64,000 nt of DNA from Thiomicrorhabdus sp. Milos-T2 (GTDB taxonomy: Bacteria > Pseudomonadota > Gammaproteobacteria > Thiomicrospirales > Thiomicrospiraceae). Below are positions 17,629-30,464 of the stretch, one piece after another. The notes under the pieces were generated by a model. The model was not told the origin of the DNA. It ran no database searches and worked only from the letters and a program-made list of their open reading frames with translations. Location: NCBI RefSeq assembly GCF_000702325.1, contig NZ_KL370891.1, positions 766,917 to 830,916 of the forward strand, given 5' to 3'. Both the position numbers and the translations under genes were made by a program. Position 1 is the stretch's first letter. Every line of letters begins with the position of its first letter.

Positions 17629-18624
17629 ATGTTTGATAATAAAGCAATTCTAATCACAGGTGGTACAGGTTCATTTGGCCATAAATATGTCGAAACAATT
17701 TTGGCGAGATATAAACCCAAACGTATTGTGATTTACTCAAGAGATGAATTAAAACAATATGAAATGCAACAGAAGTTTGATTCTGATGTAATGCGCTACT
17801 TTATTGGTGATGTTAGAGATGCAGAGCGTCTTAAGCAAGCGATGAGTGAAATTGACTTTGTTATTCATGCAGCGGCTCTTAAGCATGTTCCTGTTGCAGA
17901 GTACAACCCCATGGAATGTATAAAAACGAACATAATAGGTGCTGAAAATGTTATCCAAGCGGCTTTAGCGAATAAAGTAGAAAAAGTGATTGCTCTATCA
18001 ACAGATAAAGCCGCTAACCCTGTTAACCTGTATGGTGCAACTAAGTTGGCTTCTGATAAGTTATTTGTTGCTGCAAATAATATTGCAGGGAAATTGCCAA
18101 CTAAGTTCTCGGTTGTTAGGTATGGTAATGTTGTTGGTTCTCGTGGTTCAGTTGTGCCATTTTTTCAAAAATTAATTGACGAAGGTGCGAATAAGCTTCC
18201 AATAACGGACACAAGGATGACTCGCTTTTGGATTACGCTTCAACAAGGTGTTGATTTTGTACTCAAAAATTTTGAAAGAATGAAAGGTGGCGAAATATTT
18301 GTTCCTAAAATCCCCTCTATTCGTATTATGGATTTAGCGGAGGCGATGCTACCCAATGTTGAGCATGACGTTGTGGGGATTCGTCCAGGTGAAAAACTTC
18401 ATGAAATTATGTGTCCTGAAGATGATGCTAATCATACCTTTGAATTTGATGATTACTACGTTATAGCACCGTCAATTACATTTACCCAACGTGGTAATGA
18501 TTATTCAAAGAACTCTATTGGGGAGCAGGGTAATAAGGTCGCAGAGAACTATGCCTATTCTTCTGGTTCTAATCCAGACTTTTTAAGTGTTGAACAAATT
18601 CAACATTACAACCAAATTCGATAA
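17629..18624 (+). CDS. pseB: UDP-GlcNAc 4,6-dehydratase (5-inverting), PseB
   Basis: 331-aa short-chain dehydrogenase with NADP-binding GGTGSFG (residues ~10-16) and the FlaA1/PseB catalytic region: Lys-127 in STDKAANP and Tyr-135 with Lys-139 in NLYGATK. The phrase [16 protein letters not shown] is typical of PseB. It converts UDP-GlcNAc to UDP-2-acetamido-2,6-dideoxy-beta-L-arabino-hexos-4-ulose, the first step to CMP-pseudaminic acid. It leads a tight ten-gene operon and pseC follows after two bases. No clear promoter motif is seen in the 113 bases upstream. Confidence 0.96.
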
Positions 18625-18626
18625 AT

Positions 18627-19778
18627 ATGAAGATTCCATACGGCCGACAGTCAATTAGTCAATCTGATATTGATGAAGTGGTTAAGGTTCTAGAGTCCGA
18701 TTTTTTAACTCAAGGCCCTAATGCAACTGCATTTGAAGCTAATATCGTACAGTATTGCGGCGCTCAATATGGCGTAGCGGTTAATAGTGCCACGTCTGCA
18801 TTGCATATTGCTTGTTTAGCATTAGGGTTAGGCAAAGATGATTGGTTGTGGACAAGCCCTATTACTTTTGTAGCGAGTGCCAATGTAGGTCGTCTTTGTG
18901 GAGCACAAGTTGACTTTGTGGATATCGATTCGCAAACCTATAATTTGTGCCCTTTGGTTTTAGAAGAAAAACTTAAAAAAGCTCAACAACAGAACAAGCT
19001 TCCAAAAGTGGTTATGCCGGTTCACTTTGGTGGTCAATCTTGTGATATGCAAGCTATTTATCAGCTATCAAAGAAATATGGTTTCTATATTATCGAAGAT
19101 GCTTCTCATGCAATCGGAGCAAGTTATTTAGAGACAAAAGTAGGTTCTTGTCGATTTTCTGATATTACGGTATTTAGTTTTCATCCTGTAAAAATTATTA
19201 CTACTGGGGAAGGTGGTTTAGCAGCCACTAATGATAGTGATTTGGCTAATAAAATGCGTTTATATGGTTCTCATGGAATTAGCCGAACGTTTAACAACCA
19301 AGAAGATGTTTTGAGAGGCGGTTGGTTTTATGAGCAAATTGAGCTAGGTTTAAACTATAGAATGACCGAAATGCAAGCCGCTTTAGGTCTATCTCAGTTA
19401 ACGCGATTAGATGAATTTGTAAAGCGTCGTCATGAAATTGCGCATATTTATTATTCTCAACTTCAGACGTTGCCTGTTGTGCTTCCAAAACAGATAAGTG
19501 ATAGCCATTCTAGTTTTCATCTTTATCCGATACAACTGCTTGATGAAGAGCAACGTAGAGACGTTTTTAACAGAATGCGCGCTAAACAAATTGGTGTGCA
19601 TGTGCACTATATTCCCGTTCATACTCAGCCCTATTACCAACAACAAGGCTTTAAGTGGGGAGATTTTCCTAATGCAGAAAACTATTATAAAAAGGCATTG
19701 AGCATCCCTATCCACCAATCAATGACAGATGAAAATTTATTAACTGTGATTCAATCACTAAAAGAGTGTATCCAATGA
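18627..19778 (+). CDS. pseC: UDP-4-amino sugar aminotransferase PseC
   Basis: 383-aa PLP-dependent aminotransferase of the DegT/DnrJ/EryC1 family. The PLP lysine is about residue 189 in SFHPVKIITTGEGG. Also seen are the N-terminal substrate region (IPYGRQSISQSDIDEVV), the Asp of the PLP pocket in IEDASHAIGA and the HYIPVHTQPYY motif near the C-terminus, all typical of PseC. It puts the amino group on C4 of the PseB product. Its stop overlaps the pseF start by four bases (ATGA). Confidence 0.96.
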   Translation: MKIPYGRQSISQSDIDEVVKVLESDFLTQGPNATAFEANIVQYCGAQYGVAVNSATSALHIACLALGLGKDDWLWTSPITFVASANVGRLCGAQVDFVDIDSQTYNLCPLVLEEKLKKAQQQNKLPKVVMPVHFGGQSCDMQAIYQLSKKYGFYIIEDASHAIGASYLETKVGSCRFSDITVFSFHPVKIITTGEGGLAATNDSDLANKMRLYGSHGISRTFNNQEDVLRGGWFYEQIELGLNYRMTEMQAALGLSQLTRLDEFVKRRHEIAHIYYSQLQTLPVVLPKQISDSHSSFHLYPIQLLDEEQRRDVFNRMRAKQIGVHVHYIPVHTQPYYQQQGFKWGDFPNAENYYKKALSIPIHQSMTDENLLTVIQSLKECIQ

Positions 19779-29508: not shown

Positions 29509-29516
29509 AGCATTTT

Positions 29517-30464
29517 ATGACGAAAATACTTTCTCAAAAAATAGAGTCTTGTAGTCTTATTTGGGATAAGGCGCAACATAACGCATTTACAGATTTGATT
29601 TTTTTTGACCAAACTTGGTTTTGTGGGTTTCGTGAAGCTTCTTCTCATATGTCTTATGATGGTTCAATTAGAATTCTTAAGTCTCCTGATGGCGTTAACT
29701 GGAGTAGTTTTCAAGAACTATTTTGGGCGGGTGGAGATTTAAGAGATCCTAAATTTTATATTAATGCCAAAAATCAACTTGGTATGCTTTCAGGCATGCG
29801 GGTAGCTGTTTGTCCCAGCTTTAATCAAGGTATTGTTTCATTAAGTTGGTCTTTAAGCGCTTCTGGTTTTATCCTTAACCCGGTTATGGATCATGACATA
29901 GGGGTTTGGCGTTGGAGTGCATCTAAAAATTTTACAGATGGTTATTTGTATTCTGTCGGTTATGCCCGCCAAAAAATTAAAGGTGCTCTTTATCGCTCTA
30001 AAACAGGCGAAAAATGGGAACAGCTAGTGTTTCCTTTTTTTCCTCCGTCAGATTGTTTTGCCAATGAAACGAGCATTGTATTTTCCGAATCAGGTAAAGC
30101 GACTTGTGTCGTGCGAAGGGATCGAGTTGACTGTTTTTCTCTATTAGGTACTTCTGAGCCTCCTTATATGGAATGGCATTGGTCTGAACTTAATGTTCAA
30201 CTTGGCGGCCCTAAATTAATTAGATTTAAACAAAAAAATCTGATTAGTTACAGAATAATAGATAACAATGATGCGAGTACTTGGCTTGGTGAAATCAATC
30301 CTCATGATGAGCCCATATTAACACCTCTTTTAAAGCTTCCTTCTGGAGGGGATTGCAGTTACCCAGGCCTGGTTATTCAAAATAATCATTTATATGTTAG
30401 CTATTATTCATCACACGAAGACAAAACAGCTATCTATTTTGCATGTATTCGCCTATCTTCCTAA
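29517..30464 (+). CDS. Sialidase-like beta-propeller protein without signal peptide
   Basis: 315-aa protein with at least two Asp-box motifs (SPDGVNWSSF near residue 56 and SKTGEKWEQL near 160) and repeated short beta strands rich in Trp, Tyr and Phe. This is the pattern of six-bladed sialidase/BNR or glycoside-hydrolase-like propellers. There is no signal peptide, so it should be cytoplasmic. It is the last gene of the pseudaminic acid operon, 8 bases after maf. It might bind, trim or transfer the nonulosonate, or act with Maf. I cannot identify a full sialidase active site (Arg triad), so catalytic activity is uncertain. Confidence 0.75.
   Translation: MTKILSQKIESCSLIWDKAQHNAFTDLIFFDQTWFCGFREASSHMSYDGSIRILKSPDGVNWSSFQELFWAGGDLRDPKFYINAKNQLGMLSGMRVAVCPSFNQGIVSLSWSLSASGFILNPVMDHDIGVWRWSASKNFTDGYLYSVGYARQKIKGALYRSKTGEKWEQLVFPFFPPSDCFANETSIVFSESGKATCVVRRDRVDCFSLLGTSEPPYMEWHWSELNVQLGGPKLIRFKQKNLISYRIIDNNDASTWLGEINPHDEPILTPLLKLPSGGDCSYPGLVIQNNHLYVSYYSSHEDKTAIYFACIRLSS

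Follow-up and report, generated by a model that had tools for sequence, protein, structure and literature searches.

A predicted sulfolactyl cassette in place of PseH in a flagellar pseudaminic acid operon of Thiomicrorhabdus sp. Milos-T2

Which acyl group is carried by a flagellin sugar whose biosynthetic operon encodes the enzymes of pseudaminic acid (Pse) formation except the acetyltransferase PseH? We analyzed this question for the flagellar locus of Thiomicrorhabdus sp. Milos-T2, in a window of 64,000 bp (the whole stretch of DNA analyzed: contig NZ_KL370891.1, positions 766,917–830,916; feature coordinates are those of the window). The initial annotation had proposed that a ComA–ComB fusion (ComAB) and an ATP-grasp ligase attach sulfolactate to the sugar. 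Judged from gene content, the operon probably makes Pse with an N7 3-sulfolactyl amide, itself probably O-methylated, instead of acetyl, and this sugar would be put on flagellin; we hold this with moderate confidence. The genome assembly consisted of two contigs with a total length of 2.66 Mb and was 99.99% complete.

The operon occupies positions 17629–30464 of the plus strand, starts with pseB, and has intergenic gaps of −13 to 81 bases. It had been described as a ten-gene unit; eleven genes were actually found, two of them encoding methyltransferases (MT1 at 20552, TIGR03587, and MT2 at 22395). PseB, PseC, PseF, PseG, and PseI were all above their NCBIfam equivalog cut-offs (Table 1), and a single PseI copy was encoded in the genome. 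PseH was absent from the operon, as annotated initially: MT2, the ComA–ComB fusion, and the ATP-grasp ligase were encoded between pseG and pseI instead. A genome-wide search also revealed no PseH above the TIGR03585 cut-off; the top match had 19.6 bits against a cut-off of 93.1 and lay within a 900-amino-acid open frame (below-cut-off matches were excluded from all PseH counts). Neither Pfam nor NCBIfam matched any operon protein to a GNAT, formyltransferase, or deacetylase family. The formyltransferase of relatives, used as a query, gave just a 29% match in the genome, in a 328-amino-acid frame, which we take to be the housekeeping Fmt.

The ComA–ComB fusion is a 490-amino-acid protein encoded in one frame, with the Pfam domains of ComA (E 3.5e-86) and ComB (2-ph_phosp, E 9e-43). 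Its ComA domain scored 282.4 bits with TIGR03849, above the equivalog cut-off of 280, and retained the motifs of 1qwg when aligned to it; four other fusions scored 284.2, 285.6, 288.9, and 264.6 bits (the last in genome G1099), the cut-off being reached in four of the five fusions scanned. The ComB domain scored 146.4 bits against a PF04029 gathering score of 26.4, and the ComB domains of fusions exceeded the Pfam threshold where scanned; the second domain would thus act like ComB. The ligase gene has a likely ATG start 7 bases past the fusion stop, and its own stop overlaps the start of pseI by 4 bases, so that the spacing and coupling noted initially, like the fusion itself, were borne out. 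In Foldseek searches the AlphaFold model of the ligase (predicted local distance difference test, pLDDT, 83) matched 4dim (E 1.1e-29) and the L-amino acid ligase 3vot (E 3.0e-27). None of the named ligase equivalogs (PurD, PylC, BacD, Ddl) was above the cut-off among the best 25 of 41 NCBIfam models.

In the proposed pathway, PseB and PseC would build a UDP-4-amino sugar. The product of PseC has a single free amine, which later becomes N7. The ComA domain would combine sulfite with phosphoenolpyruvate (PEP), the ComB domain would strip the phosphate to give (R)-3-sulfolactate, and MT2 probably methylates the 2-hydroxyl of the latter. The ligase would activate the carboxylate with ATP and couple it to the 4-amino group; PseG, PseI, and PseF would finish the CMP sugar, and a Maf-type glycosyltransferase would transfer it. 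That the ligase joins sulfolactate to the sugar amine is the simplest reading, because the ligase gene lies in the acylation slot and in one transcription unit with the sulfolactate synthase. The calculated residue masses of such a sugar are 426.094 Da and, if methylated, 440.110 Da, i.e., Pse5Ac7Ac (di-N-acetylated Pse) plus 109.967 and 123.983 Da, respectively.

The acylation slot was compared among relatives. In a ComA survey of 58 relatives, 32 of them of the same genus, the cassette was found in three of the 32 genus genomes (the window genome, G406, and G399), with no other ComA above the cut-off among the 58; the ComAB profile matched three of 62 genomes across the order, and ComA exceeded the cut-off in three of 398 genomes of a phylum sample, the window genome included. 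PseH above the cut-off was present in none of the three ComAB-bearing genus genomes, in eight other genomes of the genus, and in one of the same family. The pseG–pseI interval of relatives contained a separate GNAT gene (locus L076), a GNAT domain fused to PseG (L077, L078), or a gene of a Formyl_trans_N protein (L074, L075, L079, L080); in L077 (G429) PseH was below the cut-off and the GNAT call was made from Pfam. The last type suggests that N7-formyl Pse may be made in the same genus. Both PseG–GNAT fusions are single open frames (4285–5829 in L077; 7862–9481, minus strand, in L078), and the formyltransferase-domain genes lie at 6709–7353 (L074), 7995–8636 (L075), 8936–9580 (L079), and 6792–7388 (L080).

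Slot classes were assigned for 20 PseI loci at least 40% identical to the window PseI (L040–L057 and L061, of 30 loci, and L079), with PseH and formyltransferase queries drawn from six of the classed loci and identified by Pfam. Ten loci were PseH-like (nine seen in the flanks, L050 by match coordinates), five had a formyltransferase, three had the cassette, and two (L051, L054) were left unclassed. Eleven PseI loci below 40% identity, excluded from the classing, had no GNAT/PseH, formyltransferase, or cassette in their flanks. As in the window, the pse operon adjoins flgL and/or a transglycosylase gene in L070 (cassette), in L076, L077, and L078 (GNAT), and in L075 and L080 (formyltransferase); such a neighbor was not found in L074 and L079, and L071 is a short contig. 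Because same-place pse operons of relatives have a GNAT or a formyltransferase there, the cassette occupies the N-acylation slot, and one step at one flagellar locus is predicted to be performed by a GNAT, a formyltransferase, or the cassette. MT1 was present in GNAT/PseH- and formyltransferase-type clusters too. MT2 was confined to ComAB-bearing regions among the 11 compared, being absent from eight others. In all, it adjoins ComAB in L070, L071, L082, and L214. This co-occurrence, together with the methylated outer moiety of the Shewanella flagellin glycan described below, suggests that MT2, of which the initial annotation made no use, belongs to the cassette and that the acyl group is O-methylated.

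Sampling was extended by a pattern-based contig scan of 190 relatives, of which the best 80 loci were kept, and by a class sample of 369 genomes. A metagenome-assembled genome (MAG) of Comamonadaceae (G477, L082) encoded a PseG-like protein (116 bits), MT2 (41%), fused ComAB (52%), the ligase (48%), and PseI (46%); its top PseH match had 24.2 bits, below the cut-off. Downstream of pseI in this MAG runs a long open frame of repetitive sequence that is truncated where the contig ends (5926–8919 of L082), and the protein decorated there may be other than flagellin. The genome G1099, of another gammaproteobacterial family, encoded Maf, PseB, PseC, PseF, and a PseG-like protein (119.7 bits) and, convergently to these genes, MT2 (39%), PseI (45%), fused ComAB (54%), and the ligase (44%), with no PseH-like match at E 1e-4 in the locus. 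The PseG scores of both distant cases, below the cut-off of 153.55, may fit an altered substrate or mere divergence.

A PseI lineage specific to the cassette was considered and rejected. An initial tree of 25 PseIs, mostly from one family, united the five PseIs of cassette loci in a single clade (84/83). The second tree, with ten plasmid PseIs hand-picked for spread from 74 records and the over-sampled family thinned, placed them in three positions, and a single clade was rejected (approximately unbiased test, p-AU 1.4e-6). PseIs of the window genus grouped with that of an Aureibacter locus (L235; 96/100), and the G1099 PseI grouped with L231/L237 (85/80); the L235 and L237 clusters contain ATP-grasp genes. 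Since the MT2–ComAB–ligase trio is common to differing PseI backgrounds, we regard the cassette as a portable unit.

Fused ComAB was found in six genomes (G000, G399, G406, G477, G636, and G1099), with an ATP-grasp gene beside it in all six (clear in five, weak in G636) and with PseI and MT2 in five of them. A widespread occurrence of the fusion was rejected: eight of the best 80 loci of the contig scan matched both domains, but six of these (L083–L087, L106) were separate neighboring genes, and only L081 and L082 were true fusions (L081 appears to be the cassette contig of G399, having the same match coordinates). Among plasmids, 45 records had a match, of which one, annotated as two genes, covers at least 80% of the query; 87 pattern matches on viral contigs included no relative. 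Near 87 comA loci, the cassette-ligase profile gave a strong adjacent match in two (L081, L082) and a weak distant match in four; these numbers are an undercount, since the divergent L180 and L215 genes escape the profile.

Within the MAG's family, two of 349 genomes had a match to both ComA and ComB in one frame, namely the MAG and G636, the latter being the sole fusion bearer among 42 genomes of its own genus. In G636 two flagellin genes and a match to fliD are close to the fusion (43%; L180, 9466–14876); the locus also encodes an aminotransferase of the DegT type, three proteins with methyltransferase domains, and, directly upstream of the fusion, a 379-amino-acid protein. Curated matches of this last protein were weak and belonged to ATP-grasp families (carbamoyl phosphate synthase-like, E 9.3e-6; Ddl, E 0.0034; PurD, E 0.0061); its top PDB match was PurD (E 0.013). 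The only sign of pse genes in 20 kb of G636 was a 28% match to PseC; a sulfolactyl amino sugar other than Pse is a possible product of the locus. In L215 (G877; 4687–7488, minus strand), comA and comB are unfused and form a row with a third, ATP-grasp-like gene, which matched a carbamoyl phosphate synthase-like family (E 4.4e-12) and nothing in Pfam; by eye, the surrounding genes are of polysaccharide type. More broadly, bacteria may build sulfolactate into their surface sugars. In this picture a methyltransferase–ComAB–ligase cassette that is portable and makes (2-O-methyl-)3-sulfolactyl amides would have entered unlike Pse pathways, replacing PseH, and related ComAB with other ATP-grasp genes would act in a polysaccharide cluster and, at a flagellin locus, on a different amino sugar. 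We consider the chances for this broader picture to be evenly balanced.

ATP-grasp genes were also located in Pse clusters of plasmids of Aureibacter tunicatorum (L235, 3200–4408) and Tritonibacter mobilis (L237, 3914–5050), in the latter between a PseG-like gene (FlmD) and pseI; ATP-grasp acylation of Pse may therefore be wider than sulfolactate. A Pse cluster of a cyanobacterial plasmid has genes of a transferase, a formyltransferase, and an LmbE-like protein before a PseI-like gene (L228, 4101–5958) and is possibly another slot variant.

Compared with the canonical CMP-Pse pathway of Campylobacter and Helicobacter (PseB-C-H-G-I-F), the window operon shares PseB, PseC, PseF, PseG, and PseI and has MT2, ComA–ComB, and the ligase in the PseH slot. 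The nearest precedent, as described in the available text of the reports, is the taurine-capped flagellin of Clostridioides difficile. Its type B flagellin bears a sulfonate as taurine in a peptidylamido-glycan cap, which is missing when the ATP-grasp gene CDR20291_0245 is mutated (PMC5207245, PMC5207246). A flagellin-glycan sulfonate and an ATP-grasp gene are thus common to both systems; however, C. difficile attaches taurine with Ala-Gly to Fuc3N, where the window operon would attach sulfolactate to Pse, and ComA/ComB are not named in that text. The operon proteins had no Pfam or NCBIfam match to an FdtB aminotransferase, a FemAB acyltransferase, or an alanine dehydrogenase-like protein of the C. 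difficile type; the operon's aminotransferase is PseC, above the cut-off, not FdtB-type.

In Shewanella oneidensis the flagellin carries a mono-acetyl Pse-like core with a methylated addition of 236–264 Da; upon deletion of the ATP-grasp gene sfmE the cells are motile and the flagellin mass is lower, and the promoter of the sfm operon is TAAAG-N14-GCCGTTAA (PMC3765264). The SfmABCDE system resembles the window operon in having a methyltransferase, an ATP-grasp gene, and a FliA-type promoter. It differs in that the outer-moiety compositions are sulfur-free, SfmB is a thiamine pyrophosphate (TPP) enzyme, and SfmC a reductase, with no ComA/ComB named in the available part of the report. No SfmB-like TPP family was found among the operon matches, and those of the short-chain dehydrogenase/reductase type were PseB. 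In methanogens ComA converts PEP and sulfite to (R)-phosphosulfolactate, from which ComB forms (R)-sulfolactate (PMC5695019). Both domains of this coenzyme M pathway are present in the window, ComA above the equivalog cut-off, but fused in one chain and set with pse genes and a ligase. ATP-grasp L-amino acid ligases (3vot, BacD) are the nearest solved folds besides 4dim, at about 17–22% identity in the fold alignment; the context of the window ligase suggests that it joins an acid with an amino sugar. Full-text literature searches, with most subscription journals outside their coverage, yielded no paper describing a glycan that bears sulfolactate and none linking phosphosulfolactate with pseudaminic acid.

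Sulfolactate could be ligated elsewhere, to N5 after acetyl loss or to a further residue, with N7 acylated by an unrecognised enzyme. In Campylobacter dimethylglyceroyl is on N5 and acetamido on N7 (PMC3068675), and in the L228 and L235 clusters acyltransferases occur alongside a formyltransferase or an ATP-grasp gene. We nevertheless consider this arrangement unlikely, given the absence of GNAT, formyltransferase, and deacetylase families from the operon matches, a genome without PseH above the cut-off, and a cassette position equal to that of the relatives' N7-acylating enzyme. It is also quite improbable that the ligase adds another acid or an amino acid at N7 and the ComA-like domain works with a nucleophile different from sulfite, which would give a group that is not sulfolactyl. 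Here the archaeal ComA cut-off reached in four of five fusions, the retained 1qwg motifs, and an operon without any other acid-making gene stand against ComB domains below their equivalog cut-off, L-amino acid ligases as the nearest folds, and the presence of ATP-grasp genes in other Pse clusters near which no ComA was found. Finally, ComAB might make free sulfolactate for another use, such as a solute, a sulfur store, or export, its place in the operon being incidental. Most non-cassette comA loci are without this ligase type nearby, which indicates that ComA has other uses; fused ComAB, at the same time, was accompanied by an adjacent ATP-grasp gene in six of six cases (one weak) and by pse genes in five of six, and the trio is common to unlike PseI backgrounds, making this explanation highly improbable.

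Several observations speak against a sulfolactyl amide formed by the cassette at N7. The ComB domain scored 129.5 bits with TIGR00298 (107.5–129.9 in four other fusions), below the cut-off of 175.05, and ComA of G1099, with 264.6 bits, was below 280. The 379-amino-acid protein of G636 had no Pfam match and an hhalign probability of 0.4% against the cassette ligases. The ATP-grasp genes of L235 and L237 lie in Pse clusters without a ComA found nearby; the acid is therefore not readable from the ligase alone. The absence of PseH in G477 comes from an incomplete MAG and that in G1099 from the locus, and the cassette PseIs have no lineage of their own in the second tree. N7-sulfolactylation by the cassette is still the reading that we prefer, and its support lies in comparative genomics (the slot exchange and the trio in two more families), not in biochemistry.

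Table 1. Predicted features of the pse operon and its flanks in the window.
Feature	Position	Strand	Evidence
Sigma-28 (FliA)-like promoter site, TTAAG-N14-GCCGTTAA	17542..17568	+	zero mismatches to pattern
pseB, UDP-GlcNAc 4,6-dehydratase	17629..18624	+	TIGR03589 556 bits, cut-off 407.75
pseC, aminotransferase giving free 4-amine	18627..19778	+	TIGR03588 537.6 bits, cut-off 423.5
pseF, CMP-Pse synthetase	19766..20470	+	TIGR03584 319.3 bits, cut-off 205.7
MT1, Pse-associated methylase	20552..21184	+	TIGR03587 280.4 bits
pseG, UDP-sugar hydrolase	21209..22336	+	TIGR03590 242.6 bits, cut-off 153.55
MT2, class I methyltransferase of cassette	22395..23282	+	Methyltransf_23 E 5.9e-21
ComA–ComB fusion, predicted phosphosulfolactate synthase and phosphatase	23315..24787	+	PF02679 289 bits, PF04029 146.4 bits
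ATP-grasp carboxylate-amine ligase	24795..26009	+	GARS_A 50 bits, cut-off 27; open frame from TTG 24780
pseI, pseudaminic acid synthase	26006..27004	+	TIGR03586 431.5 bits, cut-off 340.25
Maf-type flagellin glycosyltransferase	27022..29508	+	PF01973 MptE-like 127 bits
Last operon gene, predicted sialidase-like beta-propeller	29517..30464	+	AlphaFold pLDDT 81; Foldseek 5hx0, then sialidases
Two flagellins, presumed acceptors	30745..32714	+	read from sequence; match relatives' flagellin genes, same place

Genes of flgE-type, flgI, flgK, and flgL-type were found 5' of the operon, and flagellins, fliD, and sigma-54 activators 3' of it. The sigma-28-like site ends 60 bases upstream of pseB. Two such sites with zero mismatches were present in the window, the other at 10854–10880 on the minus strand, and 24 sites with up to two mismatches were counted against 6.6 expected. 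The gene following pseI presumably encodes Maf, a name that we give from its size, domain, and place. A Pfam scan of the last operon protein gave no matches; its top Foldseek match is a protein of unknown function, followed by sialidases and a pseudaminidase. Homologs of this protein were encoded by G406 and by the G429 cluster, which is of GNAT type, and it is therefore not cassette-specific.

If the proposed pathway is correct, it would yield a glycan containing sulfolactate, and N7 of Pse would be acylated from a free acid with ATP rather than from acetyl-CoA; a glycopeptide oxonium ion at a calculated m/z of 427.10, or 441.12 if methylated, would be expected. N7 would be a modular slot for acetyl, formyl, or sulfolactyl groups inside one genus. 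Sulfite metabolism would be tied to the flagellum surface, and the filament would carry a fixed negative charge—a permanently negative sulfonate in contrast to the neutral acetyl or formyl groups of its relatives.

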